Positions 9,510 to 29,659 of a stretch of 48,363 nt of DNA are shown one piece after another; within the stretch, counting starts at the first letter, position 1; every line of letters begins with the position of its first letter. The notes under the pieces are model-generated. The model searched no databases and was not told the origin of the DNA. It saw only the letters and a program-made list of their open reading frames with translations. Origin of the DNA: Anaerolineae bacterium CFX9 (lineage in GTDB: Bacteria > Chloroflexota > Anaerolineae > Aggregatilineales > Phototrophicaceae); contig SZPD01000001.1 in assembly GCA_030263515.1 (NCBI GenBank), forward strand, positions 1 through 48,363, in the 5' to 3' direction. Both the position numbers and the translations under genes were made by a program.

Positions 9510-9520
9510 GGGAATGACCA

Positions 9521-10036: not shown

Positions 10037-10113
10037 TGGAACAACGTGGGATGTTAGCCAATGGAAGGGCGCATCCTAATCGGCAATAACGAACTGAAAA
10101 GGACAAACTGCAA

Positions 10114-10881: not shown

Positions 10882-11019
10882 CAGAAGGCGACTGTTGATT
10901 TAAGCGTGGCACATATGAGGTATTCGCAACTTGATGGTCCGAGTGTGAAGATTCGCCAAGTGAAAGTGGGTAATACAAGAACAGGTAAGCAGTGCTGAGT
11001 ATCCCTGCCAGAAAGATTA

Positions 11020-14420: not shown

Positions 14421-14789
14421 TTAGAACGGAATATCCTCTGTATCTTCGCTGTGACCGTTGTCACCGTTCTCGGCGCGATCCAGAAGGACGAGGCGGTTGG
14501 CATCGATGTCGAGGCTCGGCTGCGGCGTGCCGCTCTGGTCGATCCACGCCGACGGGCGCAGCCACTCCGCCATCACCTGCACCAGCGATCCCTTGCGGAC
14601 GTACTGCTCCGCCACTTCCGCCAGCTTGTTCCAGCAGTTGACGCGCACCCAGACCGTCTGCTTGTCGCCCGCGCGGTTCTTGCGGCTGACCGCCACCGAG
14701 AACGACGCGACACTCTGTTCCCCCACCTGACGCACCTGCGGATCGCTGCCGACGAAACCCGTCATCTGAACGTTGAGGCTCGTACCCAT
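14421..14789 (-). CDS. ssb: Single-stranded DNA-binding protein
   Basis: This 122-residue SSB has an OB-fold core (LNVQMTGFVGSDPQVRQV, VASFSVAVSRKNRAGDKQTVWVRV reduced to its key WVRVNCWNKLAE) and ends in the acidic tip EDTEDIPF, which recruits repair and replication partners. It is shorter than chromosomal SSBs (about 150-180 aa), as plasmid and phage copies often are. GAGGAG lies about 9 bases before the ATG. It is the last gene of the leftward backbone unit, separated from its upstream neighbour by the structured RNA-like element at 14847-14999, so it may have its own promoter. Expected role: protecting single strands during plasmid replication or transfer. Confidence 0.93.
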   Translation of the reverse strand: MGTSLNVQMTGFVGSDPQVRQVGEQSVASFSVAVSRKNRAGDKQTVWVRVNCWNKLAEVAEQYVRKGSLVQVMAEWLRPSAWIDQSGTPQPSLDIDANRLVLLDRAENGDNGHSEDTEDIPF

Positions 14790-14846
14790 GATGTTTTTCT
14801 CCTCGCGCCTGAGCGCTTTTGCTATCCATCGACCCTGTGCCGATTT

Positions 14847-14999
14847 CTGACCAGCACATCAGCAGGCGCATCAAAGCGCAGTGTCACCTGAAAGGCGCTC
14901 GGCGTTTTTGGTGAGCGAAGCGGCACAAGCCAGGAGAAAACGCCGAAAGCGACCCCGCTAGCGGGGTTGACCCGGTGCTGCGGCTGCTAGGATGGTCAG
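14847..14999 (+). ncRNA. Structured RNA candidate, copy 1 (HEARO/omega-RNA-like)
   Basis: Non-coding. A closing stem CTGACCA (14847-14853) pairs with TGGTCAG (14993-14999). Inside are a GCGC-6 nt-GCGC hairpin (14866-14879), a 10-bp stem (14899-14908 with 14937-14946) enclosing GAGCGAAGCGGCACAAGCC, and the hairpin ACCCCG-CTAG-CGGGGT (14952-14967). A second copy at 30037-30191 keeps the single-stranded core but changes the stems with pairing preserved. G:T pairs in the stems fit + strand transcription. The HEARO (IscB-associated) identity is a hypothesis; no iscB gene is nearby. Confidence 0.6.
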
Positions 15000-15015
15000 T
15001 GACAAATCGGCACGT

Positions 15016-15354
15016 TCACAGGTCAGATGGATAAAGCGCCGCGCCGAAGGAGGAGCAGAGGACACGAGCAGTAGATGACTGGATCGGCAAGCCCGCGTAC
15101 CAAAGGGGAATATAAGCAGCACTCGGAAAGGTCAGCCCAATGCAGGCAAAGCCGGCTGTGTGTGTGAGGAACAGCGGCGAAGGCGGCGTTTCCGCACTGA
15201 TGGGAGGGGATGCGGACTGCGCCAGCGTGGGGAACATGGCACACCGCGAGCATCTACATCCAGGCAACCCGGACTGCTCGCGCAGGAGAACGGTTCGGTC
15301 ACGGCGATGGAGATATTCCGGGCAGAAATAGGCAGTGGGGAGAGTGTCAGACAT
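15016..15354 (-). CDS. Small hypothetical protein, translationally coupled
   Basis: I do not recognise this 112-residue protein. Its ATG lies in ATGTCTGA, overlapping the stop of the upstream gene by 8 bases, which is why I accept this start and not longer forms. The N-terminal third has a cysteine set (C11, then CRCSRC) that could hold zinc. The rest is rich in Pro, Ser and aromatic residues. It ends just before the RNA-like element upstream of ssb. It could be a small accessory protein of the plasmid backbone, or a chance open frame; the clean coupling favours a real gene. Confidence 0.5.
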   Translation of the reverse strand: MSDTLPTAYFCPEYLHRRDRTVLLREQSGLPGCRCSRCAMFPTLAQSASPPISAETPPSPLFLTHTAGFACIGLTFPSAAYIPLWYAGLPIQSSTARVLCSSFGAALYPSDL

Positions 15355-15964
15355 CGCCCTCGTCGGAAAAGTAGATGCTGCGGAAGTTGTACAGCGACGG
15401 CTGTTGGCTGTGACGCACGCCCTCGTAGAGTGCGCCGGTGATGTGGTGCAGCCCGTTCCTGAGCTTTTCGCGGATGTATGTCTCATCATCGTGCGCCAGT
15501 AGCGTGATCGCTGCGTAGGTCAGATACTCGACGGCAGCCAGCAGTTCGTATGCCATCCGTCCGCGCCAGCTGTGAACGCCATTGGCGTGAGCCGTCGCAG
15601 TCTTGAGATCGTCCAGTCCGCGATAAGCAATCAGCAGCGCTTTCGCCGTCGCCTCGAAATCATCGATGCGCGCGTCATCCGGTGAGAAGCGGCGCAGAAA
15701 GTTCCGCATTGCATCGACGGTGTGAACCGAGATCGAATGCTGCCCGCAGAACACCGCGAGTGTGTGCCATGCCTCCTTGAAATCGGGATGTTGACACAGT
15801 TCAAAAGCGGCGTTCTGCACGGCGATCATGCCGTCTACAACGCGCTGGTCATCCTGTTCAGCGTTCAGATTGGAAGCGAGAAACTCGCCAATGGCGTTGT
15901 ACTGGTCGTTGTCAAAGTGGTCATGATACTGCTGCATGGCAATGGCATTCAGATCGTGCGTCAT
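15347..15964 (-). CDS. Hypothetical backbone protein
   Basis: This 205-residue, largely helical protein has no recognisable motif. It has an acidic N-terminal half and a helical C-terminal half (AYELLAAVEYLTYAAITLLA, which is amphipathic and not a clear membrane span). AAAGGA lies 9 bases before the ATG. It follows the 135-residue gene by 15 bp on the same strand and is coupled to the next small gene. It belongs to the cargo downstream of the PRTRC cassette; no function can be assigned. Confidence 0.7.
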   Translation of the reverse strand: MTHDLNAIAMQQYHDHFDNDQYNAIGEFLASNLNAEQDDQRVVDGMIAVQNAAFELCQHPDFKEAWHTLAVFCGQHSISVHTVDAMRNFLRRFSPDDARIDDFEATAKALLIAYRGLDDLKTATAHANGVHSWRGRMAYELLAAVEYLTYAAITLLAHDDETYIREKLRNGLHHITGALYEGVRHSQQPSLYNFRSIYFSDEGDV

Positions 15965-15979
15965 GCGATTATCCTTTGG

Positions 15980-16387
15980 CTAAAGAAGCTGCGTTAAACG
16001 GGCGAGGAGTGAGAGCGTCAGCGGATCGGTCGGCTGTTGGTCGATGTGTCGAATCAAGCGGAGCAGCATGGTGTTGGCGATGCCGTAGGGGGAAAACACA
16101 CTGTCGGTATACGGCAGCACCCACGTCCCGGACGGGAGCAGCTTCGCGCCTTTTCCGTGCAGCCTAAACGCAATATCCGGCATGGATGCGAGTGTCCAGC
16201 CAGTGGTACAGACCAGCGCTTCGGCGCGCTCATCGGCTTCGAGCGTCCAGTCGGCATAAAGCAGCCGTTCACCGTGCAGCGCAAGATAGGCACGTTGGAG
16301 CGACCAGCCGCCCCATCCGCCGAACGGCAGGCGCACAACTTTGAGCAGGATGACCGGCTGCCAGTCGAGATGCGTGAGCGTCGTCAT
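15980..16387 (-). CDS. Hypothetical protein
   Basis: This 135-residue protein is not recognised. It is rich in beta-prone stretches (PVILLKVVRLPFGGWGGWSL, ALVCTTGWTLASMPDIAF) and ends in a helical segment. I checked it as a candidate for the missing PRTRC JAB peptidase, but it lacks the HxH...D metal motif. Its ATG overlaps the stop of the upstream 82-residue gene as ATGA, so translation is probably coupled. Confidence 0.65.
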   Translation of the reverse strand: MTTLTHLDWQPVILLKVVRLPFGGWGGWSLQRAYLALHGERLLYADWTLEADERAEALVCTTGWTLASMPDIAFRLHGKGAKLLPSGTWVLPYTDSVFSPYGIANTMLLRLIRHIDQQPTDPLTLSLLARLTQLL

Positions 16388-16632
16388 GGCAGCGCCTCGA
16401 ACCAGAAGCCGCTGAAGCGGGTGATCTCGCCGTTATCCAGAAACCTGACGAATACGGTGTGAATGCCAACGCTGAACCGATGATCCGCACTGTCACACAG
16501 CGGATAGTGACTGACGATGCACTTGCGGTGGGGATTGATGGTGGACAGCCCGACGATATGCCCAACTGTGCCGGGCGGCGGCAGCTTCGAGTGATGGACG
16601 TTTTGACGATGGCATTGCAGCATGGCACTCAC
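16384..16632 (-). CDS. Small hypothetical protein
   Basis: This product is up to 82 residues and has no known motif. A GTG at 16632 overlaps the upstream stop as GTGA; an ATG four codons later (16623) is the alternative start and gives 79 residues. The protein is rich in His and aromatic residues (HRKCIVSHYPLCDSADHRF) and appears to be beta-rich. It is coupled at both ends to its neighbours in the same leftward unit, which supports its reality. Confidence 0.6.
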   Translation of the reverse strand: MSAMLQCHRQNVHHSKLPPPGTVGHIVGLSTINPHRKCIVSHYPLCDSADHRFSVGIHTVFVRFLDNGEITRFSGFWFEALP

Positions 16633-17480
16633 TCGCTTTCGTCAGGGTCGCAGGACGTCACCGTGTTGCTGTAGCCGTTGACGATCTGGACGGACTGACC
16701 CCGTTCCCGTGCGGCGCGCTGCATGGCGATCTGCGCGGCGTTCCAGTCGTAAAATTCGCCATACTCGTCGAGTGTTTCATCATCCATGTTGCTGAGATGA
16801 AATGGCGGGATCGGGTCGCAGTTCTCGCTTTCAGCCCGTATCTCGGAGGGGATTTCGACCACCACCACAGCATCAGGGGCGGTCATGACACAGATCGGAT
16901 CGCCGGACTGTGCCGCCAATCCCACCAGCGGCGGGTGATGGTCAATCCACGTCACCGCGTATTCACTTCCAACGGGCAGCTGCGTCCCGTTGAAGGCATT
17001 GACCTCGCGCACCAGCCGCACCTGCCCGCCGGGATAGATGTGCTGCGGCTGTCCATTGACCTCCGCCACCAGCGGGTCGCCTTCGTTCACCGGATAGAGC
17101 GCCGCCACGAAACTCTCAAAATCGTCGGACAGGTCAATCGAAACCTGCACGAAGCTGTCCAAGTCGAGCAGGGATGCCTGCTGGATGGCTTCATCCATCG
17201 CTTCATCCGGTTCGACAACTTCCGCTGAGGAGAGGTCGAGCGGCTCCGCCAGTTCATCAGGCGTGCGACCCGACAGGTCATTCACGTCGTAAAACAGGAT
17301 GAGACACCAGTTATGGACACCGACGCGGTCATAGGCGGTGGCGCGCACGCCACTGCCTAGCTGCTCCGCCAGTTGATTGACGGCGCGGATGTAGATGGCA
17401 CGGTAGACTTCCGCGCCATCCGGCACGGCTCCGCCGTCGTTGAAGCCGTACTTGGTTCGCATGTCGTCCCAGTAACGCAT
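16629..17480 (-). CDS. Hypothetical protein downstream of PRTRC ThiF
   Basis: This 283-residue acidic protein starts at MRYWDD; GAAAGGAG lies 6 bases before this ATG, so the longer form beginning upstream is rejected. The N-terminal part has DMRTKYGFNDGG and a helical AIYIRAVNQLAEQL stretch; the middle is acidic. No catalytic motif is evident. It is the first gene after the terminator that follows the ThiF gene, so it probably needs read-through or its own promoter. It heads the small-gene group that runs down to ssb. Function unknown. Confidence 0.7.
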   Translation of the reverse strand: MRYWDDMRTKYGFNDGGAVPDGAEVYRAIYIRAVNQLAEQLGSGVRATAYDRVGVHNWCLILFYDVNDLSGRTPDELAEPLDLSSAEVVEPDEAMDEAIQQASLLDLDSFVQVSIDLSDDFESFVAALYPVNEGDPLVAEVNGQPQHIYPGGQVRLVREVNAFNGTQLPVGSEYAVTWIDHHPPLVGLAAQSGDPICVMTAPDAVVVVEIPSEIRAESENCDPIPPFHLSNMDDETLDEYGEFYDWNAAQIAMQRAARERGQSVQIVNGYSNTVTSCDPDESE

Positions 17481-17514
17481 GATACTGCTCCTTTCAAACC
17501 CTCGGATAAAAAGC

Positions 17515-17536
17515 AAAAACTCCGCTGCGAGCGGAG
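17515..17536 (-). terminator. Intrinsic terminator after PRTRC ThiF
   Basis: On the - strand, CTCCGCT-CGC-AGCGGAG is followed by TTTTTGCTTTTT. It lies just past the ThiF stop (17569) and marks the end of the PRTRC unit. Confidence 0.8.
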
Positions 17537-17568
17537 CCTGCTGGCGGACAATCGGTTGGAGAGATGAA

Positions 17569-18384
17569 TCAGTTGTCGGCAGGCTGCGGTAGATACGCCA
17601 GCAGTTCGTCGCGGCAGATCGGTAGACTGCGGACGCTCATCCCGTCAAGGCTAATGAAGCTGGCGAAGGTGCGGATCGGTTGGCGGCGCAGTAGCGTGTG
17701 GACGTACTGCCCGACCATGCACGCCATCCAGTCGTTGACGAGGCACGCTTGCTCACCGCGTAAGACTAATTCAGCGCAGGACAGGTCAGGTTGTGGTCCA
17801 GACGCGGGCGCTTCGGGTTCGAGCAGTGCCGGAAAGAGCAGCCCTTCTTTCGGCAGATAGGCGTACTTGCCCTCCCTACCGTCGATGTGCCGCCGCATCT
17901 GCTCCGGGTCGGTGACATTGCCAATCACAACCTGACCGCCGTCGCGGTAGTTGCCCGCGCCGATCAGGATGCCCTGCGCCTTGTGCAGGTCGCGCCGTGC
18001 CAGATGGTTGTCCACACAGCCGATCACGAGCTGCGACCCGTAGCGGCTGCTGTGCTTTTCGGCATCGAACGGCTCGACGCACCACGCGATGTCCAAGCCG
18101 AGCGCCATGTTCAGGCGTCTGCCGACGACTTCGACTTTCGGCAGTTTGAGCGCGGCATCTGCTGGCGTGAACAACTGGCGACCGACGTTCTTCTCCTCCA
18201 CGATGTCAGGATCGACCAGCAGGATACCCGGCGTATGCAGTCGGGCGCGGCGCATGTCATAGACAATGCGCGCCACGATACGAGCGACCTGCGCCCCCGT
18301 CCCGCCACAGCCGACGATCACGATAGTCTGAATATGGGTGTTGGGATCAAAGACGTTCATCCTTTCGGGATTGCCTGCGCTCAT
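17569..18384 (-). CDS. PRTRC system ThiF-family E1-like adenylyltransferase
   Basis: This 271-residue E1/ThiF-fold protein should adenylate the C terminus of the ubiquitin-like PRTRC protein C using ATP. The Rossmann nucleotide loop G25-C-G-G-T-G30 is followed by DPDIVEEKNVGRQLF, whose Asp, Asn and Arg are the conserved ATP and Mg contacts. CVDN forms the next family motif, and C203 (PDLSC) is a candidate thioester cysteine. The ATG overlaps the stop of the E2-like gene as ATGA. Order and coupling (C, F-like, B, ThiF) match known PRTRC cassettes on plasmids. The target of conjugation is unknown for the family. Confidence 0.88.
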   Translation of the reverse strand: MSAGNPERMNVFDPNTHIQTIVIVGCGGTGAQVARIVARIVYDMRRARLHTPGILLVDPDIVEEKNVGRQLFTPADAALKLPKVEVVGRRLNMALGLDIAWCVEPFDAEKHSSRYGSQLVIGCVDNHLARRDLHKAQGILIGAGNYRDGGQVVIGNVTDPEQMRRHIDGREGKYAYLPKEGLLFPALLEPEAPASGPQPDLSCAELVLRGEQACLVNDWMACMVGQYVHTLLRRQPIRTFASFISLDGMSVRSLPICRDELLAYLPQPADN

Positions 18385-19088
18385 CGCGTTTCATCTCCCA
18401 GAACTTGTGCCAGTGTTTTCTTGACAGGGATCAGATCGCCGGTCGGATAGCGCCGCGCCTTTTGCGCTTCGAGGTCGATCAGCAGCTTGCGGATGTCCTG
18501 AGACTGGCGCTTGCTCTTGCCGCTGACGGCATGATCGCCGAACGACGAACCGAGCAGCATCGTCCAGTCCTCCACCAGTCCCGCGCTCTGCAAGGCGGTG
18601 TCGGTCACGCGCTGCACCGTTCCCCAGCAGATCGCGCCGGAACCAAACACGTTCGGCAGCGGCGCGTGGAACAAGGGGAGATTGAGCGTTTCGGGACGAC
18701 GTTTGACCGCGTACACGCCGTAGACTGGCGCTTTATCCTCCGCCGTCACGCGGATCATGACCAAGCCGGGCAACGGCACGCGCAGCGCGACATCCGAGCC
18801 ATCGAGGAACACGCCGGTCTTGCCCGGCGGGCGGTATTCGACAATGGTCTTTTTCACGCCTTCCTGCCGTACCAGCAGCGTATTGCCGCCGAGCAGTCCG
18901 GTATCGAAGGTGACTTTCGCCGCCAGCGCCAGCGCGACCTGTGCCGGATCAACCGGATACTCCGTTGTCTGCTCACCGTCGGTCTTACGCAGCATCACCC
19001 CGAACGAGTAAAAACTGAGCGTCAGCGACGGCTGCTCGTTCAGTGCTGCCGCTAGGACCCGTCCATTCCAGTCGGATGGATTGTTCAT
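18381..19088 (-). CDS. PRTRC system protein B (E2-like, Prok-E2 family D)
   Basis: This 235-residue protein is the expected conjugating-enzyme partner of the ThiF protein. The E2-like core is seen in LPNVFGSGAICWG, where C154 is the candidate catalytic cysteine after the P-N element (P145, N146). The start MNNPSDW at 19088 is chosen because AGAAAGG lies 7-8 bases upstream; a start nine codons earlier lacks this. Its first 104 bases overlap the 3' end of the upstream F-like gene in another frame, an unusually long overlap for this operon. The stop is coupled to ThiF. The family assignment comes from the sequence pattern and context. Confidence 0.82.
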   Translation of the reverse strand: MNNPSDWNGRVLAAALNEQPSLTLSFYSFGVMLRKTDGEQTTEYPVDPAQVALALAAKVTFDTGLLGGNTLLVRQEGVKKTIVEYRPPGKTGVFLDGSDVALRVPLPGLVMIRVTAEDKAPVYGVYAVKRRPETLNLPLFHAPLPNVFGSGAICWGTVQRVTDTALQSAGLVEDWTMLLGSSFGDHAVSGKSKRQSQDIRKLLIDLEAQKARRYPTGDLIPVKKTLAQVLGDETR

Positions 19089-19866
19089 TGAGCTTGCCTT
19101 TCTGCTTGAGTTCACGATAGAGGGTGGCGATATGGCGTTCCAACGTCGTCATTAGATCCGGCGTGGTCTTGAGGATGTCCAACCCCGCCATTGCATCGTG
19201 CATGATGCCGTCCGCTTCTTCGATCATCTCGACGGCGAAGGCGATATCTTCTTTTGACCACGAGAGTGGCGGGATTTCGCCCAGCATCTCGTCGCTGTAA
19301 TCGACCAGCGAGTTGCCGGTGCAGCTAAACAGCCAGCCGAACAGCCAACTGACCTGCTGTAACGCAGGATCGGTTTGTTCGTGCAGGCTGTGAGCAATCG
19401 CGCCGCTGACCTGACGGATCGCTTCCGGTACGTCGATGTGGTAGGTTTCCCCTTCGGGGATGTCAATGCCGAACGGCGCGAGGATCGGCAGCAGGTCGCT
19501 GTGAACGGCATAGAATTGCGGATCTTCAAGTTCAATACCCAACGCGACCAGCGGGATACCCCAACCGATGGTTTCGAGATCGTCAATCGGGATGCCTTTC
19601 GCGGAAATCCCCCGGCACAACAGCCGATCCAATTCCGCATATGGCACGCCCGCCCGCAGTCGCTCAATTGCGTCGGCATAGAGGTCGGGGAACGCACCGC
19701 GCGTCACCTGCAAAGCAATCGTCAGCGGGTCGGTGTCGTAGTCGATGTCGTCTTCAAACTCATCCCAGAAGGGATCGAAGGTGGCTGCCGCCGCTGCGAG
19801 CAGCAGCAGGGGATCGGTGGTCAGCGCAACCGCCAGGTGGTCGTAAATCGCCGTGATCGCTTTCAT
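18985..19866 (-). CDS. PRTRC protein F-like (assigned by position)
   Basis: This 293-residue, acidic, helical protein has repeated short helices (DPLLLLAAAAATFDPFWDEF, LQQVSWLFGWLFSC). No enzyme motif is seen. In PRTRC cassettes protein F lies after E and C and before A and B, which matches this place, but I cannot confirm it by sequence. The last 35 codons run over the beginning of the E2-like gene; the sequence CTCAATGAAC at that point would give a coupled ATGA stop with a single-base shift, so a small indel may have removed the natural stop. The ATG overlaps the upstream stop as ATGA. Confidence 0.65.
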   Translation of the reverse strand: MKAITAIYDHLAVALTTDPLLLLAAAAATFDPFWDEFEDDIDYDTDPLTIALQVTRGAFPDLYADAIERLRAGVPYAELDRLLCRGISAKGIPIDDLETIGWGIPLVALGIELEDPQFYAVHSDLLPILAPFGIDIPEGETYHIDVPEAIRQVSGAIAHSLHEQTDPALQQVSWLFGWLFSCTGNSLVDYSDEMLGEIPPLSWSKEDIAFAVEMIEEADGIMHDAMAGLDILKTTPDLMTTLERHIATLYRELKQKGKLNEQSIRLEWTGPSGSTERAAVADAQFLLVRGDAA

Positions 19867-20123
19867 GCGCCGAACTCCAGCACGCTGGCGGTCAACAGCG
19901 GGATGGGCGTGAGGTTCGCTAGATGCCGCGCCGCTGCCGTGCAGCGTCCGGTGTAGGCGACCAGTTCGGTCACGGCTTCGACCAGTGTCTCACGCGGGAG
20001 GCGCGCCGTCCCGGTGATCAGGTGGGGCTGCTGCGCGAGCAGCCCCATGCCTTTCAGTTCAACCGGCGTGATGGACAACAGGCAGTCGCGCAGTGCGTCC
20101 ATGCCGAATGGAATGCTGCCCAT
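19863..20123 (-). CDS. Small hypothetical protein in the PRTRC operon
   Basis: This 86-residue protein starts 5 bp after the stop of the ubiquitin-like gene, with AAAGGCTGA upstream, and overlaps the next gene as ATGA. It is helical (ALRDCLLSITPVELKGMGLL, EAVTELVAYTGRCTAAARHL) with no known motif. It sits where some cassettes carry ParB or protein A, but it is far too short for either and lacks JAB metal ligands. Probably a real small operon member of unknown role. Confidence 0.65.
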   Translation of the reverse strand: MGSIPFGMDALRDCLLSITPVELKGMGLLAQQPHLITGTARLPRETLVEAVTELVAYTGRCTAAARHLANLTPIPLLTASVLEFGA

Positions 20124-20128
20124 AAGCT

Positions 20129-20350
20129 TCAGCCTTTACGCCCCGGTTGCGGCAGGAACTCGACCACGCGCAGTCCGTTTTCGCCTTCGGTTCGTTCGCG
20201 CAGCGTGGCATTGGCGATTTCCGGGTAGCTGGTCTTAAGCAGATCGCGCACCTGCTCGTTAGTCAAATCGGACATCGACGGGTCTTCGACGATGCGCGTC
20301 GCGCCGATCTTGAACACGCGGGACGAAGCGTTCTGGTTTTGCTCGGTCAT
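20129..20350 (-). CDS. PRTRC system protein C (ubiquitin-like)
   Basis: This 73-residue protein matches the prokaryotic ubiquitin-like family of PRTRC cassettes: a beta-grasp pattern with RVFKIGATRIVEDP, LTNEQVRDLLKTSYPEIANA and RVVEFLPQPG. It ends in GRKG, a single exposed terminal glycine that the ThiF E1 would adenylate. AAAGGAC lies 9 bases before the ATG. It lies between the E-like gene (30 bp upstream) and the 86-residue gene (5 bp downstream). Burroughs, Iyer and Aravind classed such proteins with Ub-like modifiers; whether this copy is conjugated to anything is not known. Confidence 0.85.
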   Translation of the reverse strand: MTEQNQNASSRVFKIGATRIVEDPSMSDLTNEQVRDLLKTSYPEIANATLRERTEGENGLRVVEFLPQPGRKG

Positions 20351-20380
20351 GGTGAAATTGTCCTTTCCTGGTGAAATGAA

Positions 20381-21040
20381 CTAGAGCAAAGCAGTGGTTT
20401 CGGATGCCCCATTGGTCGAAATGGCGGGTGAAGTCGGGACTTCCAGCGTGAGCGGTTCGTTGTCTTCAACGGCGGCGGGTGGTTCGTCGCCGTCGGTGGA
20501 GTCGCCGACCTGCACGAAGTCTTCCAGCGCGAACAGCGCCATATCCCGCGCGGTCAGATGCTTCATCTTCTTCGTCAGCGCGTACACGTCGGGGATACGG
20601 ATCGGCGTTTCGCCGTCCCACAGCTTGCCATCGATCAGGGTGGCAGCGAGCTGTACCGCCTGACGGTAAGCGGCAGCATCCGTCTCTCCGCCCGTGAGCT
20701 TGAGATGGCTGATCTTGACCGTCTTCACCCCCTTCTTGAGCGGAATATCGACCGTCGGTTCCGCAGGCGCAGGTGGCGGCGCAGTTTTCTTGCTGCTGAC
20801 TGGTGTCGTTGTCGGCGGAGGCAGTTCGGCGATGATGGGCGGTTCGGCTTCGACGGCAGACAATGCCATCACGCCGTCTTTGATGATTGCCGTGAGATCG
20901 GACAGGTTGGCGTAGGCGAACTGACGGACGTGCGCGAGATCGCCGCGCTGAATGAGCAGCGTGCCGTGCCGTTCATCGCTCTCACTGTCAGGCAGCGTGA
21001 GCGTGATGACGGTCGGTGCTTTGGCGTTTTTCTTTGCCAT
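20381..21040 (-). CDS. PRTRC protein E-like (by position)
   Basis: This 219-residue protein has an N-terminal beta-rich segment (PTVITLTLPDSES, GTLLIQRGDLAHV), a Pro/Thr-rich linker around residues 70-95, and a C-terminal helical part (AYRQAVQLAATLIDG, LTKKMKHLTARDMALFALEDFV). No catalytic motif is present. It directly precedes the ubiquitin-like gene, the usual place of PRTRC protein E, but sequence proof is missing. GAAAGGAAA lies about 7 bases before the ATG. It probably heads the PRTRC unit. Confidence 0.65.
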   Translation of the reverse strand: MAKKNAKAPTVITLTLPDSESDERHGTLLIQRGDLAHVRQFAYANLSDLTAIIKDGVMALSAVEAEPPIIAELPPPTTTPVSSKKTAPPPAPAEPTVDIPLKKGVKTVKISHLKLTGGETDAAAYRQAVQLAATLIDGKLWDGETPIRIPDVYALTKKMKHLTARDMALFALEDFVQVGDSTDGDEPPAAVEDNEPLTLEVPTSPAISTNGASETTALL

Positions 21041-21133
21041 GAGGCGTTTCCTTTCACTGATTTAGCGGATGAGATGGGGATTTGAGACAGGCGTTTTGGA
21101 GACGGGCATCACCTCCTTTCGTGGCGCATCGTT

Positions 21134-21358
21134 TCAGTCATGGGACTGGCGCTCGCGCTCGTCCAGCACGTCAAGCGCGAATGCCTGGTGCAGCGCCTGC
21201 GGGTCATAACTGTCTTCATCGAGTTCCTGTGCTACGATGTCTTCCCGTGCGGCATATCGGATCGCGTCGGGCTGTAAGTGATCCAGATCGCTGCCCATCG
21301 TGCGCGCGTATTGCACGCCAAGACGGTAGAAGTCGTGCCATCGTTTGTCGTTGTTCAT
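21134..21358 (-). CDS. Small hypothetical protein coupled to the primase
   Basis: This 74-residue acidic protein starts at MNNDKRWHDFY. The ribosome site GAAAGGAA lies inside the end of the primase gene and the ATG overlaps its stop as ATGA, so the longer form starting at 21421 is rejected. The sequence is helical and acidic (AREDIVAQELDEDSYDPQAL). No known motif. It precedes the PRTRC E-like gene by about 90 bp. Confidence 0.6.
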   Translation of the reverse strand: MNNDKRWHDFYRLGVQYARTMGSDLDHLQPDAIRYAAREDIVAQELDEDSYDPQALHQAFALDVLDERERQSHD

Positions 21359-22287
21359 AGCGTTCCTTTCATTCGTGCCTGTGGGCTGTTGATTGGGAGA
21401 TGAATACCGAGTGCCGGACACAAATCCCTGAGCAGGAGCGTGCCGCAGACGTGGCAGAAGCCGTAGCCGGTTTTTCTGTTGAACCCGAAGGAAGGATGGT
21501 GGTCAGCGTGTTTGTGACGCTCCGGGAAGGGACACACGCCGTTGAGCCAATCGCCGCGCGGTTTGCAGCCGCACGCGAGCAGCGTGTTCGTCACCTGTGC
21601 AACGAGATCGGGATGGGGGATGTACGGTGAAGATTGATGACTGGCGCGGCACTGGGTGACGCGCGGCGATACCGAGGATACCGGCAGGAAGGTGGTGAAG
21701 TCATCCAGTGCGTAACGCTGCTCGTGGAGTTCGATCAGGTGGCAGCGGGCATGATGACGTGATGGTTTTGTGTTCACCGTCGATGGGATTCGCAGGCTCT
21801 GGGCAACACTGAGCCTGTCGCCATGCAACGCAGCGGCTAATCCGCACAGCAGACAGCGCGTCAGTTCGAGATCGGCTGTTGGTTCGTCCAGCCACCAGTA
21901 GGCGTGATACCCGCCGCCGCTGTGGACGATGCACGAGGGCGTTGGTGACGCAGCTTGCAACCGTCTGAGCGCATTGGGCGATGGATCGTCAACATCGACA
22001 AACAGCGCCGGAAGCGCGACGACATCCGCTGTGCTGCCGCGCTGCCACCGAGTCAATCCCGGACGACGCAGCCCGACCGCGAAATACGCCCCCCAATTGA
22101 GCGCGTTCGCGCCGTCGAGCTTCGCCAGCGCGTCATGTAGTGCAGCAGGATTGTCCAGCGGAATGTGACGCGAAGGTGTGCGCTGTTTTCCGTCGGGATG
22201 GATGGCGGTAAGCGTGAGGCAGGTCTGAGGATAGGCGGCGCAGCACGCCAGCAACGCCGCGAAAAACGTACCCCGTTCGTCACGCAT
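21355..22287 (-). CDS. AEP/RepB-type primase-like protein with C-terminal zinc finger
   Basis: This 310-residue protein resembles plasmid replication primases of the archaeo-eukaryotic primase superfamily. LFVDVDDPSPNAL (near residues 91-103) supplies the metal-binding DxD, and IVHSGGGYHAYWWLD (near 118-133) the SGGGxH nucleotide site. The last 70 residues form a CHC2-like zinc finger (CPFPERHKHADHHPSFGF, then FCHVCGT) of the sort used by DnaG-type primases for template contact. It starts 4 bp beyond the end of the methyltransferase-helicase gene. Likely role: priming plasmid replication. The weak upstream start region leaves the N terminus a little uncertain. Confidence 0.8.
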   Translation of the reverse strand: MRDERGTFFAALLACCAAYPQTCLTLTAIHPDGKQRTPSRHIPLDNPAALHDALAKLDGANALNWGAYFAVGLRRPGLTRWQRGSTADVVALPALFVDVDDPSPNALRRLQAASPTPSCIVHSGGGYHAYWWLDEPTADLELTRCLLCGLAAALHGDRLSVAQSLRIPSTVNTKPSRHHARCHLIELHEQRYALDDFTTFLPVSSVSPRVTQCRASHQSSPYIPHPDLVAQVTNTLLACGCKPRGDWLNGVCPFPERHKHADHHPSFGFNRKTGYGFCHVCGTLLLRDLCPALGIHLPINSPQARMKGTL

Positions 22288-22291
22288 GGCA

Positions 22292-25200
22292 TTAGAACAA
22301 TGCCAACTGTTGCGTGAGCGGCTCGTTGTCGGCTTCGGACTGCGGAAAGGCGATCACTCTGTGTTCGGTTCGGCGTGAAGGCTTCGACGAAAGCGGACGC
22401 TGCGGCTTGACGACACGGACGGCAGGCTTATTGTCGCCACCGCTGGCACTGAGCACCAGCAGTTTCGCGGACACTTCCTGCTCACAGCCCGGAAAGACGA
22501 TGCGATGTTCGGTCAGCCATGCCGCGATCTCCGCCGCAGCGCCGCTGTCGAGCAGTGTCATCAGATCGGCACGCAGTCGCACCCACTCGTTCTCGTCGGC
22601 TACCAGATGCACCGTCTCCAGATAGGCGGTGACGGTTTCGACCGGACGCGCAGCGACTTCATCCGCTGCCACTCGCTTGCGTGATGAGTGATCATCGACT
22701 GGGGTGATCGTCGCGCCGAGTTCCAACGCTAACGCGAACAACGGATCCGGCTCGTCCACTGGCAGAGGATCGCTGCCCGCATCAATGCTTTCAATGTTCC
22801 AGTACGCTGCATCCTCGGTGTCGATCTCGCTCACAGCATCCGACGCCTTGAACAACTGCGATGGGTCGAGCAGGCTCTCGTCGCGCCCAATCGCTTCCAG
22901 CAGCGCTTCTTCGAATCCGCCCTCACCTTCGGTTAGAGCGTCCAGCCCGGTCAAGCCGACATCGCCCGTGAGCAGCTTTGCTGCCCGCTGCTTGCGCGAC
23001 ATCAACTGGACAGCGGTCTGCTCCATCGTTCCCTCAGCGTACAGATACACGACCTTGCAGTGTTCGTGCGTCTGATTCAGGCGGTACGACCGCGCTGCCG
23101 CTTGCATTAGCGTCGAGAGATTGAAGACCAGCTCGTAGAAGATCAACGTCGGGAAGTGGATGAGATCCAAGCCGGTTTTGACCAACTCGGGATTACACAG
23201 GACGACGTTTGTTCCTTTCGCGATCTCGCGCTCGATGACCGCTTCGCGCCGCTCGGCATCGACCGTGTTCTTGAGGATGAAGGTCCGCGCTTCCGGCACC
23301 TGCTGATTCAGCAGACTTTCGAGGCGCGGCTGGATGTCGCGGGTGGCCGTTTGCCGGAAGTAGATCACGCACGGGCGATTGGCGGCCAGTTCTGCTTGCA
23401 CCAGATCGATCAGTGCCTGTTCTTTGGCATAGATACGCTCTTCGCCGTAGCTTGGCAGGCTGACAACCGTGTACGGTTCCTTCGCACCGGTGATCGGGTG
23501 TTTGAGGTTGTGAATCACGTCATATGGGCGATAAGGTGCATTAGGCCAGCCCATCGACCACTGCAAGTACGCGCCACGAAACGTCGTGTCGCCCTCCCAT
23601 CGCCGCTGGATGAGGTAGTCCTTGAGGCGCTGGCGCGTGCGGTCGTATTCGGCGTAGACGTCCTTATCGAGTTCGACCGGCTGCGCGATTTCCTCGTACT
23701 GCGGCAGCGCTTTGCCTAAGTCGGCGAGCGAGAAGAAAATCGCATGATCCAGCACTTCGGCGACCAGCAGCGGCGAGATGCCCGGCGCTTCCTGATACGG
23801 ACGCTCGTAGGTCGATGTCCCCGTGTACGCGCCGGTATCGCGGTCATAGCTTGGGCGTTCCTCGACAACTTGCTCCCTAACTCCCATATCGGCAACCCAG
23901 CGCGACTCGGCGCGCCCACGCTGATAGCGAAGCTCACCGAAGGTATTGCTGCTCTCACTCACTACCTCTTGAAATTGGTGGGAGCCACGCTCTTTCCGGC
24001 TGAAGCGTTTGCCGCCGCCCCAGTTATAGCGCTGGCGCACGCGCGGATTGATGGCATATTCGAGGTTGAAGATCGACGACGAGCGTCCGTTGAATGGCGT
24101 GCCGGTCATCGCCAGCACTTTCTGCGCCAGTCCTGCCATCCGGCTGAAGGCTTCGCCGTTGCCGGTGTCGCCGTGCTGTGCCTCATGCACTTCATCCCAG
24201 ATCAGCAGATAGACCCGATCCGGGTACATCCTTTTGAGGTATTCATCCAGCCGGTAACGTGGATTCTTCGGCGGATATTTCTCGCCCGGCTTCGGTTGTG
24301 AACCACGGTCACGACTTTCGCGCCAGAGCGGTGTCTGACACACGCCGCAGGTGCGCTTGCCGCCTTCCAGCCACGATTGCGATGCGGTTGCGCTCACGCC
24401 TTTCTTTTCCTGCATGATCGTGCCCCCACAGTGCGGGCATTTCGGCACGCGCTCACGGCGGATGCGCTGATGCGGCAGATAACCATCGGGTACAGGCGAT
24501 CCGTGTCGCCACAGCGCGACCGCTTCGCTCCGCCAGACGACCGCTGATTCCCACGCACAACCCAACTTGGTCAGGTCGCGTTTGATCAGACCAATCTTCG
24601 GCACATGCGCGGGCAAGGCTTCCGCGCGATCCATGAAGCGCTTGACCTCTTCATGCCGGTCGAGACGTTCGATAGCCGCTTTCGGCGCAATGCTGACCAG
24701 TTCGCGTTTCCACTTCTCGATCAGGTGCGGCGGCGCGACGATCAGGACGACTTGCTTCGGGCTGATGTCATTTGCTAAAGCTTTCACAACGCCGGAAGCC
24801 ATACTGATTGCTGCCGCTCCGCCCATGAGCGTTTTTCCCGTGCCCATCGAACCGATCAGCAAAATACTGTTTCGGGACTGAAAGCCCCGCGCCACTGCGC
24901 CGACGACGTGCTTCTGCGCGGTATACATGGGGTACTTTCCCTTCAAACGGATGCGATCCAACCAGCCACCGATCCCGGCAAAGTCAAAACCGTACATGGG
25001 TTTGAACCTGGTGCTGAGATACTGGGCCAGTGCCCGCTTGTTGGATGTGATGAAGCCAAGCAGTGCCTCATCGCCTTCCATCTCGACCGTTGTGCCATCG
25101 CTGCCGAGCAGGGAGAGTGTCGTCGTCGGTTTCAGGCGGATGGTCGTCTTCTTGACCTGCCGTTCCGGGTCATTCGGATCAGCTTCGACCTCGACGCGGG

Positions 25201-26122
25201 CGACCTGCTCGACGTGACGGGTTTTGCCGCGCAGCGCCACCCGTCCGTACTCGTCAGTCTCGATCACCGCACCGTCGGCGACCCCGGCTGCCAGCACCAG
25301 TGCCAGATGTCCCGGACGTGGCGCAACCACCGGCTCGATCTCGGCGGGTGGCGGTGGCACGTCCAGCAGCGCTTGAAACCCACTCGTCTTCCATGCGCCC
25401 TGCTCTTCAATCAGCTTCAGTCCGGCAGTCTCATCGAGCATGTCCGGCGCGAACACGAAGCGCTGGATGGCGCGCGGTGCGGGCAGGCGATAACGCGGTT
25501 CTGCCTGCACGGTCAGCGGCTGCGGATGATCGCGATCACGGATGATCTGGTCGTAGAGCGCCGTTGCGTCGAGCGGCACACCTTTGACCGCAGCGACGAC
25601 GCACTGGTCGTACTCGCCGAGATGCTTCCCCGGCAACGCCCACACGTCTACGCGGCTGCTGTGCTTGGCCAGAAACGCTGCCGCTTCCTGGGTGATGTGC
25701 TGGCGATACACGCACCACAGCGCGAGTCCGCCGTCCTGTATCCACTTCCACGCATGACGCAGATAACGGAACTCGACCCGCTTGCTGCCGGATGCCGCCG
25801 TGTCGTGGTCGTAAGGTGGATTGAGCCATGCCGCGCCAAAGGCATTGTTCGATGCCACTAGACGCTCGACATCGCAGCGCACCGCCTGCGTTGTGCCAAA
25901 GCGGGTGATGCACGCCGCCGCGCGCTCGCCGTCGAGTTCATTGGCATATGGCGTGACATGCCATGCCTGTGCTGCCGCTTCGAGAAACGCGCCGTCTCCG
26001 GCGAATGGATCCAGCAGCCGCACGGCAGAGGTACTGGGCATGACTAATGAAAGGAGCGCCGGATAGTGGCGCTCCTCGATGGGCAGATAGCCCATGATCA
26101 TTTTCGATTCGGCTCGTGCCAT
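22292..26122 (-). CDS. DNA N6-adenine methyltransferase (DUF6094-like) fused to SNF2-type helicase
   Basis: This 1276-residue protein has two enzymes in one chain. Residues 1-200 form a Rossmann methyltransferase with SAM motif DPFAGDG at 38-44 and catalytic NPPY at 101-104, as in DUF6094 proteins of mobile elements. A linker leads to a large SF2/SNF2 helicase: Walker A GSMGTGKT near 424-431, DEVH near 640, and a C-lobe with AARSYRLNQ. A Cys4 zinc insert (CPHC near 563, CGVC near 593) is embedded between the motor motifs. CAGGAGC lies 7 bases before the ATG, and a terminator separates it from upstream genes. It probably modifies and remodels plasmid DNA, perhaps as anti-restriction or during transfer. 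Confidence 0.87.
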   Translation of the reverse strand: MARAESKMIMGYLPIEERHYPALLSLVMPSTSAVRLLDPFAGDGAFLEAAAQAWHVTPYANELDGERAAACITRFGTTQAVRCDVERLVASNNAFGAAWLNPPYDHDTAASGSKRVEFRYLRHAWKWIQDGGLALWCVYRQHITQEAAAFLAKHSSRVDVWALPGKHLGEYDQCVVAAVKGVPLDATALYDQIIRDRDHPQPLTVQAEPRYRLPAPRAIQRFVFAPDMLDETAGLKLIEEQGAWKTSGFQALLDVPPPPAEIEPVVAPRPGHLALVLAAGVADGAVIETDEYGRVALRGKTRHVEQVARVEVEADPNDPERQVKKTTIRLKPTTTLSLLGSDGTTVEMEGDEALLGFITSNKRALAQYLSTRFKPMYGFDFAGIGGWLDRIRLKGKYPMYTAQKHVVGAVARGFQSRNSILLIGSMGTGKTLMGGAAAISMASGVVKALANDISPKQVVLIVAPPHLIEKWKRELVSIAPKAAIERLDRHEEVKRFMDRAEALPAHVPKIGLIKRDLTKLGCAWESAVVWRSEAVALWRHGSPVPDGYLPHQRIRRERVPKCPHCGGTIMQEKKGVSATASQSWLEGGKRTCGVCQTPLWRESRDRGSQPKPGEKYPPKNPRYRLDEYLKRMYPDRVYLLIWDEVHEAQHGDTGNGEAFSRMAGLAQKVLAMTGTPFNGRSSSIFNLEYAINPRVRQRYNWGGGKRFSRKERGSHQFQEVVSESSNTFGELRYQRGRAESRWVADMGVREQVVEERPSYDRDTGAYTGTSTYERPYQEAPGISPLLVAEVLDHAIFFSLADLGKALPQYEEIAQPVELDKDVYAEYDRTRQRLKDYLIQRRWEGDTTFRGAYLQWSMGWPNAPYRPYDVIHNLKHPITGAKEPYTVVSLPSYGEERIYAKEQALIDLVQAELAANRPCVIYFRQTATRDIQPRLESLLNQQVPEARTFILKNTVDAERREAVIEREIAKGTNVVLCNPELVKTGLDLIHFPTLIFYELVFNLSTLMQAAARSYRLNQTHEHCKVVYLYAEGTMEQTAVQLMSRKQRAAKLLTGDVGLTGLDALTEGEGGFEEALLEAIGRDESLLDPSQLFKASDAVSEIDTEDAAYWNIESIDAGSDPLPVDEPDPLFALALELGATITPVDDHSSRKRVAADEVAARPVETVTAYLETVHLVADENEWVRLRADLMTLLDSGAAAEIAAWLTEHRIVFPGCEQEVSAKLLVLSASGGDNKPAVRVVKPQRPLSSKPSRRTEHRVIAFPQSEADNEPLTQQLALF

Positions 26123-26142
26123 GAGAGCTGGCTCCTGGAATC

Positions 26143-26168
26143 AAAAAAGTCCTCGTTTGCACGAGGAC
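26143..26168 (-). terminator. Intrinsic terminator upstream of the methyltransferase-helicase
   Basis: On the - strand the stem GTCCTCG/CGAGGAC with a 6-nt loop is followed by TTTTTTG. It lies 26 bp past the stop of the 82-residue gene and 21 bp before the next start, so the methyltransferase-helicase needs its own promoter or read-through. Confidence 0.82.
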
Positions 26169-26193
26169 TTTAGCGGTCGATTAGCGTGGTGCG

Positions 26194-26442
26194 TTACTGC
26201 TGCTCGAATAAATCGAGATATTCGGTCGGCATCAGCCGGTTAGGGAGTTCAGAGTCGGCATCCAGCGGTTCGTGGAAGCCCAGCTCGATCATGCAGCGCA
26301 GGATGGCATGATACTGGCGGACAATCGTCTCAGCGTGGGGAGCATTTTTGTTTCCCCGCCACAGCGCTGCTAAATCGCTGAGTTTAAGTTCCATCGTCTT
26401 GAGCAGTCGCTCATCGACCGGGATCGTATTCGTTGGCATCAT
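26194..26442 (-). CDS. Small hypothetical protein
   Basis: This 82-residue helical protein (ERLLKTMELKLSDLAALW, ETIVRQYHAILRCMIELGF) has no known motif. Tandem ATGs at 26442 and 26439 are both possible; GGAAGG lies about 10 bases upstream, inside the end of the preceding gene. It follows the papain-like candidate by 3 bp and is the last gene before a strong terminator. Confidence 0.65.
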   Translation of the reverse strand: MMPTNTIPVDERLLKTMELKLSDLAALWRGNKNAPHAETIVRQYHAILRCMIELGFHEPLDADSELPNRLMPTEYLDLFEQQ

Positions 26443-26445
26443 CAG

Positions 26446-26991
26446 TTAATTTCCTTCCGGTTTCCAACGTGTGCCTTCACTTTCCAGCACCGCAATGTAA
26501 CGCGCCAGCTGTCCGGTGGGTTCCGGGAGCGGCAGTGCCAGACGACGGGGAAAGGTCGCGCAGTTATCCCGATCCGGCAGCGGCGGTTGTCCGCGTTCGG
26601 GGAAGGCATACGTGAATACTGTTTTTTCAGTATACCACTGAAGTGCCTGCGCTCGAACCTGCTCATAGTCCGCATCGGGAAGTTCAACGGTCACTTGCCA
26701 TACATCAGTTCGCGCGCCACTTTGATGCAGTTCATCGGCACGCACAAAAATTGCGCGGTCAGCTTGCAGTGCGCCGTCGAGCGGCTCATTTTCCTTCAAC
26801 CACTCAATCGCTGCTTCCTCGCCACCTACAGCTTCAATGGCTTCGGGTGTCGGGTGAAAACCAAAGATGAATTGAGGATCGTCCTCAAACGCAAAGCCGA
26901 CATGCCCGGCACGGATCAATGCCGGTTCTGTTTTGTATTCCGGTGCTTGAAAGCTCGTGCCGCGAAAGCCAATGAGATAGATTTTCTTCAT
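26446..26991 (-). CDS. Hypothetical protein, possible permuted papain-like (NlpC/P60-type) fold
   Basis: This is a 181-residue protein. AGHVGFAFEDDP with an early His, FGFHPTPEAIEAV, and a later DNCATFPRRLALPLP with Cys recall permuted NlpC/P60 or LRAT-like enzymes, where the His precedes the Cys. If right, it would be a thiol hydrolase or acyltransferase. No signal peptide is present, so it would act in the cytoplasm. It could instead be a structural relative. It is transcribed with the 82-residue gene and follows the 726-residue gene by 33 bp. The fold suggestion rests only on motif spacing. Confidence 0.65.
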   Translation of the reverse strand: MKKIYLIGFRGTSFQAPEYKTEPALIRAGHVGFAFEDDPQFIFGFHPTPEAIEAVGGEEAAIEWLKENEPLDGALQADRAIFVRADELHQSGARTDVWQVTVELPDADYEQVRAQALQWYTEKTVFTYAFPERGQPPLPDRDNCATFPRRLALPLPEPTGQLARYIAVLESEGTRWKPEGN

Positions 26992-27024
26992 ACGTACTCC
27001 GATACAACACTGTCAATTATACGC

Positions 27025-29205
27025 TCAAGGCAGGCTGATAATGCCCTGTTCTAGCCCGCCGGTGATCAGGCGTGTCCACGCATCGACATCCAGATCGACG
27101 CTCAGAAGATCAATCCCGCCTGCCGAGCGCGTCTTGCGGACGAGCATCGCTTTCTGACCCGTGTCGTACAAGTACGCCGACCATGCATCGAACACTGGGA
27201 TGTTGACGAGTTGCGTGACATGATGCTTGAGCTTGGCGGTCGCCTGCGCGTCGCTGGTACGAAAGATGAACGTGGTCGCCTTGCCGCCGTAGTTCGGTGT
27301 CACCGCCCAATCATGGACGAGCAGCAGCGATGCAAACCGTGCTTCGGGTAGATAATGCAGATAGGGATGATACATGCCTGAGTTCCCCTCTCCGGCAGTC
27401 AGTTCGGTGGCAGGCGCATCCAGTGGGATGACGGAAACCTGTTCACCTTTCGACAGTTTCGCCCGGATCGCTTCAACCGCCATGCGCGGTCCCGCCATAT
27501 TCACGAAGATACAAATGCCCTCATGTACCGACCAGCCATAGCAAAACACCTGTCCGGTGATGCTGCCCGTCATTTCGCCGACATACGTCTGCCCAATCTG
27601 TGCCATCCGTCCGTTGGAGAGGGGAACTGTTGGCGGCGTGGCAAGAACTTCCATTTGCGTGGCGCGAATAGCCGATTGCACCGCATCGAGCGGTTCGCCT
27701 TCAGATGGCATGGGGACAGGCTTGATGATGCGGATGGCAGGTGTCTGTTCTTCATCCGGCACGGCAGAAGTTTCGATACCGTTTTCAGAGACGTCAGATG
27801 GTGAATGGACGGGCGCTGGCTGTAATCCAGCATCGATGAGCTGACGTTTGATTTCAGCATCGGTTGGCGGCAGCGCTGCGCCGGGCGGTACGACAGCACC
27901 ATGCTCGATCTTGATACCGGGGATCGGTTCGAGCATGGTGAGTTCACGCTCAAAGCACCAGCAGACACCGATGCCTTCAAACTCCACATCATAGCTCCAG
28001 CCATGTGTGGCGTTATGGTTGTACAGCCGAACCACCTTTCCGCGTCTTCCAGTCGGAATAGGTTTGCCATCCTCTGTTTCGAGTTCATGACGCGCGTAGA
28101 CGGTCTCAGTTAGCCCGAATAACCGCGCTAGCGGCTCATTCGCGGATGTTTTCCTGATCGGCATCCCCAGGATTTGCGCTGCTTCAGCGACGGTACAAGG
28201 CTCCTCATCGATGAATGGCACAGCCGCCACCAGCATGTCCAGTGCTGCCACTTTGTCCGGCTGCTCGAAATGCCATTTCCGCGTATAGAGAGAATACAGA
28301 GCGTTGTTGACTTGGAGCGCTTTCTGGATGGTCGGTAACGGATTGCCCGCGCGATCCTGAGGTGGCAGGTCAAATTCCCATACGATGTTGGGTTGATCGC
28401 GGCGGTTGCGCCAGGTTGTCCGCGTGGCAAAAATGCCATTCTCTCCCTTCACGATGATGTCGCCGTTCGAGCCGCGCTCCTTGCCGATGATCCGTCCACC
28501 GAAAATCGTCAGAAGTGGCGACGCTGATTCTACGACTGGTTCTGTGTCGGATGCCTCATCGCTAGACTGCGTTTCACTCGTCACCAGCGTGTGAATCGCA
28601 GCGGGCAGTTCCGCACCGATGAAATACCACGCCTTACGTTTGCCACTCCAGCGCGCGCCCTGTCGCTTGAGCAGGTCACGGTGCGGATAGGTGTCACCGT
28701 GCAGCCACCACCAGACTCTGCCGCCTTCTTCGCGCTGGCTGCGTTCAGCCGTGATGCCCGTCACTGCGCTCTCCCGCACACCTGTAGATGGTGATGGCGG
28801 ACGGAAACCCGTCGGATCAAAGTTCGGACCGACGCGATAGCCCGGCTCGGTATAGTCGGCGTGCGTGCTGTCAGGCAGCGCCCACCACTTCCGGTCGCGC
28901 CACAGATACACTGCAGCACGATGATGCTGACGGGTGATTTGCACCGCCTTCGCCAGTTCATCCACACTCACCGTGAGCAGGATGTGACCGTGCCTCACGA
29001 CAACATCGCTATCAACCTGAAGGTAGCGATAGGATGCCTGCCTGGGCGACACATCATGGGCATTCTCGCCGTACAGCGTCAGCAGCACGGGCATGACGGC
29101 GCTGGTGTAGCCCAGCTTATACGCACTGACGGTTTTGCCAGTCTGCGGATGCCTGATCCGCTGTGCGCCGTAAGTATCGACCGCGATGATGTGTTGATCA
29201 GCCAT
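27025..29205 (-). CDS. Large hypothetical backbone protein with DUF5710-like segment
   Basis: This 726-residue protein starts at MADQHII. The ATG overlaps the stop of the SLOG gene (ATGGCTGA), so the longer open frame upstream is rejected. A short segment near residues 175-205 (GDTYPHRDLLKRQGARW, then KAWYF) resembles the DUF5710-type motif found in plasmid primase and ArdC-like proteins. The middle holds a region on a Pro/Thr-rich linker, and the C-terminal part (about 550-726) is alpha/beta. No catalytic motif is evident. It probably belongs to plasmid maintenance or transfer. Confidence 0.75.
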   Translation of the reverse strand: MADQHIIAVDTYGAQRIRHPQTGKTVSAYKLGYTSAVMPVLLTLYGENAHDVSPRQASYRYLQVDSDVVVRHGHILLTVSVDELAKAVQITRQHHRAAVYLWRDRKWWALPDSTHADYTEPGYRVGPNFDPTGFRPPSPSTGVRESAVTGITAERSQREEGGRVWWWLHGDTYPHRDLLKRQGARWSGKRKAWYFIGAELPAAIHTLVTSETQSSDEASDTEPVVESASPLLTIFGGRIIGKERGSNGDIIVKGENGIFATRTTWRNRRDQPNIVWEFDLPPQDRAGNPLPTIQKALQVNNALYSLYTRKWHFEQPDKVAALDMLVAAVPFIDEEPCTVAEAAQILGMPIRKTSANEPLARLFGLTETVYARHELETEDGKPIPTGRRGKVVRLYNHNATHGWSYDVEFEGIGVCWCFERELTMLEPIPGIKIEHGAVVPPGAALPPTDAEIKRQLIDAGLQPAPVHSPSDVSENGIETSAVPDEEQTPAIRIIKPVPMPSEGEPLDAVQSAIRATQMEVLATPPTVPLSNGRMAQIGQTYVGEMTGSITGQVFCYGWSVHEGICIFVNMAGPRMAVEAIRAKLSKGEQVSVIPLDAPATELTAGEGNSGMYHPYLHYLPEARFASLLLVHDWAVTPNYGGKATTFIFRTSDAQATAKLKHHVTQLVNIPVFDAWSAYLYDTGQKAMLVRKTRSAGGIDLLSVDLDVDAWTRLITGGLEQGIISLP

Positions 29206-29659
29206 AAGGTTGTGGACTCCGGTCAAAGTTGATGAGATGCGCTTCCTTGCCGCGCTGCACCGCATATTCGTACCCGGCGAACGTGCCGGGACTGTCGCCG
29301 TTCCAGATAAATACCGAGCGCTGGCACATATCAACCATCCAGCGATCGCGGGCGGTGTAGCCAGCGAGCAGCCTGCCGCCGGAACTGCGATACAGATCGT
29401 GCGCCACCTTGACATAGCTGCCATGTTTGCAGCCGTAGTTACGGGGGAAATTGGCGATACCGGCGACAATCACCCGTGCTTTCAGGCGGCGGCATTCCTG
29501 CACAACCGCCATATCCACGCCTTTCGGGTTGTCGCCGACGAGGATCATCCAACCGAGCCGATGCGCGCGGCGGACGGCACGGCAGGTGTAGTCGAGCATT
29601 TCGCGGGTGGCATAGCGGCTGCCCGCGATCATCAGGTGTGTGGTCGTCTGAATCTGCAT
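29198..29659 (-). CDS. SLOG-superfamily protein (DUF2493/YspA-like)
   Basis: This 153-residue Rossmann-like protein has the SLOG signature: HLMIAGSRYATREML, then LGWMILVGDNPKGVDMAV, and a late GTFAGYEYAVQRGKEA. SLOG proteins bind nucleotides or their derivatives, and some sense second messengers; others act on nucleoside ligands. The start MQIQ at 29659 is fixed by a strong AAGGAGG 5 bases upstream; a start 10 codons earlier is rejected. It heads a leftward unit whose 5' leader contains a long imperfect hairpin (29698-29741). Coupled to the 726-residue gene. Confidence 0.8.
   Translation of the reverse strand: MQIQTTTHLMIAGSRYATREMLDYTCRAVRRAHRLGWMILVGDNPKGVDMAVVQECRRLKARVIVAGIANFPRNYGCKHGSYVKVAHDLYRSSGGRLLAGYTARDRWMVDMCQRSVFIWNGDSPGTFAGYEYAVQRGKEAHLINFDRSPQPYG

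Follow-up and report, generated by a model that had tools for sequence, protein, structure and literature searches.

Paired DNA hairpins with a four-way junction as probable single-stranded promoters of a conjugative element in Chloroflexota

What are two look-alike folded segments doing in the genome of Anaerolineae bacterium CFX9, and do they fold as RNA or as DNA? The window analysed (48,363 nt, positions 1 to 48,363 of contig SZPD01000001.1) contained both segments, at 14847-14999 and 30037-30191, with a common 19-nt identity for which the chance expectation in the window was 0.02. The first-pass annotation had described them as two copies of one structured RNA. Three of the stems proposed there were recovered: the closing stem of the first segment (CTGACCA at 14847-14853 with TGGTCAG at 14993-14999), the inner stem (GGCGTTTT/AAAACGCC in one segment versus CGGATTTT/AAAATCCG in the other) and the hairpin ACCCCG-CTAG-CGGGGT versus CAGCCG-CTTG-CGGCTG. 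A further GCGC-loop-GCGC hairpin in the 5' arm was unsupported, as the family fold pairs that stretch with the 3' arm. The fold z-scores of the two segments, here named HP1 and HP2, were -3.8 and -6.1 with RNA parameters and -4.2 and -5.5 with DNA parameters, respectively. The features of the window are shown in Table 1.

A search of about 85,000 species genomes of bacteria and archaea returned the exact conserved tip of the element (GAGCGAAGCGGCACAAGCC) in 16 stretches. The tip records with the right fold were nearly all Anaerolineae/Chloroflexota MAGs, with the exception of one unplaced record and two that were labelled Clostridiales and Pleurocapsa, respectively. The MAG titled Pleurocapsa minor (L011, JAHHHY010000013.1) carried the same element as a genome of the window's genus (G055), and its title is probably wrong. 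Relatives beyond the exact tip were added by degenerate patterns, and a covariance model (R1) was then built. This search for homologues, suggested earlier as a check, matched HP1 at 14842-15001 (140 bits, E 1.8e-36), HP2 at 30033-30191 (102.9 bits, E 6.4e-26), 30 of the 98 genomes of the family, 44 of the 154 genomes of the order (more than 140 copies) and 4 of 400 genomes sampled across the phylum; shared ancestry among members inflates these and all other family counts. The distribution is patchy and multi-copy, as expected of a mobile element. One site, G346:C1:639621-639774, was matched by R1 on both strands and is therefore close to a palindrome. The type C loci (L014/L047, L038 and L051), which share the tip and have no evident -10, were left out of the family; they showed a TTGA-type stem and a long palindrome after the element (12-bp arms, 4-nt loop). 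No match to the exact tip sequence was found in viral contigs, and a tRNA/tmRNA search returned none. Rfam 15 (gathering threshold and E up to 10) gave no match to the elements bar one chance hit, and plasmid records queried with HP1 gave only a 22-nt chance match and no similar plasmid DNA.

Table 1. Coordinates of the hairpin elements and of the genes they are predicted to serve (positions of the window)
Feature	Coordinates	Strand	Basis or remark
ssb, predicted first gene under HP1 with the + strand as template	14421..14789	-	Pfam SSB 5.6e-18; start codon ~50 nt from HP1
HP1 (probable hairpin promoter 1), four-way-junction element upstream of ssb	14847..14999	+ (folding strand)	R1 match, fold
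HP1 P2 mini-hairpin CCT-GAA-AGG (GNA triloop)	14887..14895	+	
HP1 P3 apical stem, bears the conserved tip	14896..14951	+	
HP1 conserved tip GAGCGAAGCGGCACAAGCC, including d(GCGAAGC) at 14915-14921 and GGC-ACAA-GCC	14913..14931	+	
HP1 P4 hairpin ACCCCG-CTAG-CGGGGT, stacks on -35	14952..14967	+	Predicted fold
HP1 -35 element TTGACC, across the P4/P1 junction	14967..14972	+	
HP1 extended -10 TGC-TAGGAT	14985..14993	+	Invariant alignment columns
Predicted leading-region operon: ThiF, Prok-E2_D (PRTRC type), RepB-primase-like, DUF6094 methylase-helicase, unknowns	15347..29205	-	
First gene predicted to be served by HP2, operon head	29198..29659	-	Homologue in relative fused to RNase H domain
HP2 (probable hairpin promoter 2), fold as HP1	30037..30191	+	R1 match, fold
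HP2 conserved tip	30104..30122	+	
HP2 -35 element TGGACG	30156..30161	+	
HP2 extended -10 TGC-TACGGT	30175..30183	+	

The 22 first members shared a fold in which a long stem (P1) is topped by a four-helix junction, and 87 of 100 distinct later members were parsed into it. The junction had no unpaired nucleotide (a perfect four-way junction) in 76 of the 87 parsed members. P2 is usually a 9-nt hairpin of the form NNN-GNA-NNN, P3 is long and bears the conserved tip, and P4 is short. The stems were kept in the further homologues: with 22 homologues, double-changed cells numbered 189 against 69 in shuffles, the covariation score was 0.461 against 0.159, and none of 500 shuffles scored as high. Both sides had changed in 12 of 14 P3 pairs. 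Among the helix cells nearest the junction, 1,265 of 1,305 were Watson-Crick, 11 were G·T and 2 were A·C. G·T would be expected of a + strand RNA and A·C of a - strand RNA, and since both are nearly absent the fold appears to be one of DNA rather than RNA. A GNA triloop was present in 60 of the 80 nine-nt P2 hairpins, with all four bases occurring in the middle position, and the tip occurred in the versions GC-GNA-GC, GT-GNA-AC and GG-GAA-CC. GNA triloops are known as hyper-stable DNA mini-hairpins, with d(GCGAAGC) as the classical case, in the passage of PMC6479982 that cites Hirao 1994 and Yoshizawa 1997. The DNA energy parameters gave no GNA bonus, so this argument for DNA rests on the loop sequence and the literature and not on computed energies.

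Promoter sequences were found in the 3' arm. In type A, the four-way-junction type, a -35 element (TTGAC/TGGAC) was followed after 14-17 nt by an extended -10 (TGCTAnnnT). Of the 82 distinct 3' arms, 65 contained the pattern TGnTAnnnT, against a single one among the 82 mirrored 5' arms, and the -35 score peaked only 14-17 nt upstream of the -10 (3.70 versus 2.12, sd 0.07, when shuffled). Types B and D, which are without P4, carry TTGACG-16-TAGGCT and TTGACA-16-CATCGT; as they keep about 16 nt, like type A, the -35/-10 spacing persists where the topology changes. Sigma is strictest in its reading of T(-12), A(-11) and T(-7); these bases are kept in the -10 while the middle three are free. In the predicted folds, A(-11) was unpaired in 57 of 87 members and a loop of at least 3 nt in the 5' arm lay opposite the -10 in 73 of 87, the -10 being picked by score in both counts. 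The unbiased statement on the -10 is therefore given by a MAFFT alignment, not chosen for promoters, in which TGC-(T)A-nnn-TG shows no variation at T, G, C, A, T and G. As counterpoints, most members have a short spacing of 14-16 nt, and a weak -35 or a -10 of the form NAnnnT occurs in some.

The direction of the predicted promoter depends on the state of the DNA. In double-stranded form it faces away from the genes nearby and could fire in that direction, while as a + strand hairpin it points toward them, onto the 5' flank. Among the 92 members called with a simple gene finder, 83 had their nearest 5'-side gene on the opposite strand; the remaining 9 had a + strand call, and two of these were recovered as ssb by tblastn. 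The 5'-side gene was ssb in 35 members, in most cases 44-56 nt from the hairpin, and all 34 such genes had a Shine-Dalgarno sequence (34/34). The alternative 5'-side gene was the head of a long operon, about 300-520 nt away. Beyond the ssb hairpin, 69.8 kb of genes lay on that opposite strand versus 8.5 kb. On the 3' side, gene orientation was mixed and the flank was unconserved (13 of 244 columns conserved), its distal part offering no conserved promoter able to make a leader RNA. In L062, L086 and L090 a long + strand ORF stops 30-48 nt short of the hairpin, with no ssb found at that place; ssb has perhaps been replaced by cargo at these loci.

The surroundings of the elements resembled those of a conjugative element. 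The window operon is syntenic with its counterpart in G366, a genome in one contig; the shared features are ssb, HP1, the ThiF/E2 genes, the methylase-helicase, the head gene and HP2. In G366 the 5' side holds a VirB4-like gene, a type IV coupling protein (T4CP), a relaxase-like gene and RHH genes. The 1,276-aa DUF6094 methyltransferase-helicase of the window (22292-26122) showed 67% identity over 1,253 aa with that of the G366 element. The product of the G366 operon head gene (L129:13487-14371) has an RNase H domain fused to its N-terminus (E 2.1e-33), which would be fitting for the handling of RNA made on the incoming strand. In about 11 of the 12 contexts of the element, a coupling protein was encoded on the 5' side, beside RHH and relaxase-like genes; oriT was not located. 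The window itself contained no transfer genes, those of its genome being on other contigs. The relaxase family PF03432 was absent in 8 genomes, and the relaxase-like protein had no Pfam, NCBIfam or PDB relaxase match. Its assignment rests on invariant Y33, H130, H143 and H145 in proteins of about 220 aa (L075, L076 and relatives) that adjoin an RHH protein, and the family is possibly a new MOB family. Among R1 matches within 25 kb of each other, 25 pairs had the same orientation and 1 the opposite. From these pairs and the 5'-side transfer genes, the + strand is the predicted transferred strand, with oriT predicted left of ssb. Leading regions laid out in this way have been described for F and many plasmids (PMC11541004, PMC9849209, PMC7736820). 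Left of ssb, the + strand of the window (175-13005) carries defence-like cargo, namely DruE-like and DpdE-like helicases (DpdE E 2.9e-262), a large Eco57I/DrmMI-type methylase, HEPN and a Mrr-NERD helicase, in an orientation that could not be expressed from an incoming + strand.

The explanation that we favour, and hold to be quite probable, is that each element is a single-stranded-DNA promoter of a conjugative element, with HP1 serving ssb and HP2 the leading operon. During conjugation the + strand would enter the recipient as single-stranded DNA, 5' end first, and the incoming element would fold into a long stem topped by the perfect four-way junction. The stem would rebuild a double-stranded promoter, with the 3' arm as non-template strand carrying the junction -35 and the extended -10. 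The -10 would sit in a built-in bulge and, as proposed here, would thereby be already partly open. Host RNA polymerase would start near the stem base and continue onto the single-stranded 5' flank as template, yielding ssb mRNA from HP1 and the long leading operon mRNA from HP2, so that the element's protective genes would be expressed before a second strand exists. The transcript may also prime second-strand synthesis. Once that strand is made the hairpin would be gone, and transcription from the element would be expected to stop.

The claim that the segments are a conserved RNA and not a DNA repeat was borne out in its second half, as the copies have diverged through compensatory changes that keep one conserved structure and are not a plain repeat. 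The RNA nature is probably wrong, in view of the near-absent G·T and A·C wobble, the DNA-type GNA mini-hairpins, the directional -35/extended -10 in one arm, the opposite-strand genes on the 5' side and the apparent conjugative-element context; judged from these sequence features, the molecule is probably a single-stranded DNA fold acting as a promoter. Covarying helices are shared with the structured non-coding RNAs of Rfam 15, but the wobble pairs usual in RNA helices are nearly absent here and no Rfam match was obtained. The + strand non-coding RNA proposed at first would account for the stable fold and the covariation, yet RNA helices are usually rich in G-U and just 11 of 1,305 cells were G-T, the promoter-like sequence lies inside the 3' arm and not upstream of the 5' end, and neither the fixed link with opposite-strand genes nor the GNA triloops fit it; we consider it very unlikely. 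A structured leader on the - strand, with the hairpin in the 5' UTR of the mRNAs for ssb and the operon and regulatory like a riboswitch or an autoregulated leader, would be in the right place, directly upstream of both, and covariation alone cannot separate RNA from DNA. This reading is also unlikely: no conserved promoter is seen farther out on the 3' side, where 13 of 244 columns are conserved, - strand G-U would read as A-C in the + strand (2 of 1,305 cells), a fixed-spacing -35/-10 in one arm is not predicted by it, and Rfam holds no match.

Two further explanations keep the DNA and change its role. In RSF1010, the ssi used with the RepB' primase is a folded single-stranded start site for complementary-strand synthesis, and we know of no promoter elements in it. 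The elements could likewise be start sites for second-strand synthesis, recognised by the RepB-like primase of the element or by the host primosome and with no promoter role. A RepB-primase match in the same operon (21355-22287, weak at E 4.8e-4 and below the cut-off) resembles the RSF1010 arrangement, a protein could bind at the conserved tip, and Frpo of F itself also primes synthesis (PMC7736820). A priming site, however, needs neither a -35/extended -10 nor a distance of about 50 nt to a Shine-Dalgarno/ATG on the template side, and priming without a promoter role is judged quite improbable; the ssi and promoter roles may go together. A cruciform driven by supercoiling could instead switch a double-stranded promoter in the resident element, as in phage N4, where GNA hairpins favour extrusion (PMC4496689). 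Extruding a hairpin of about 150 nt would be costly and the duplex -35/-10 point away from ssb, which makes this extremely improbable.

As single-stranded promoters, the elements were compared with known systems. F carries two copies, Frpo1 and Frpo2, one of them upstream of ssb (PMC9849209, PMC11541004), and in Frpo1/Frpo2 and ColIb-P9 ssi2/ssi3 a stem-loop of the transferred strand rebuilds the -35 and -10 (PMC9849209, PMC11541004, PMC7736820). The present elements are alike in having two copies per element, one before ssb, a predicted one-strand hairpin with -35 and -10 in its stem, and served early genes 5' on the opposite strand (83/92; ssb in 35). They differ in host (Chloroflexota), in sequence, as no similarity to plasmid records was detectable with HP1 as query, and in build, with a compact stem that ends in a perfect four-way junction, mini-hairpins of the GNA type, a conserved tip and an extended -10 set in a bulge; in a direct comparison, the F region folded into a longer, differently branched stem. 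By analogy the elements most likely work like Frpo, being most likely Frpo-like single-stranded promoters non-homologous in sequence to the known ones. For the virion RNA polymerase of phage N4, too, a DNA hairpin whose GNA-type loop contains a sheared G:A pair marks a promoter on single-stranded DNA (PMC4496689), but there a phage-encoded polymerase reads the small hairpin itself, whereas here a host-type -35/-10 is present and the GNA hairpins are located at the junction and at the tip. Whether the elements form an independently evolved class of single-stranded-DNA promoter seems to us evenly balanced; in such a class P4 would be stacked at the four-way junction for the -35, GNA hairpins would act as locks, the bulge would pre-open A(-11), the tip would recruit a protein of the element, and the promoter, GC-rich and weak as duplex, would be strong only when single-stranded.

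The single-stranded promoters demonstrated in the cited literature are those of enterobacterial plasmids, and candidates elsewhere rest on similarity or loose folds. The structure described here is defined by covariation over more than 80 parsed copies, which gives a searchable model and precise mutational predictions. A pre-opened -10, if true, would explain the silence of the promoter as duplex. If the proposed role is true, the element would be a rare example of a conserved fold selected as DNA, and early expression from the incoming strand would have arisen in Chloroflexota elements with a different architecture.
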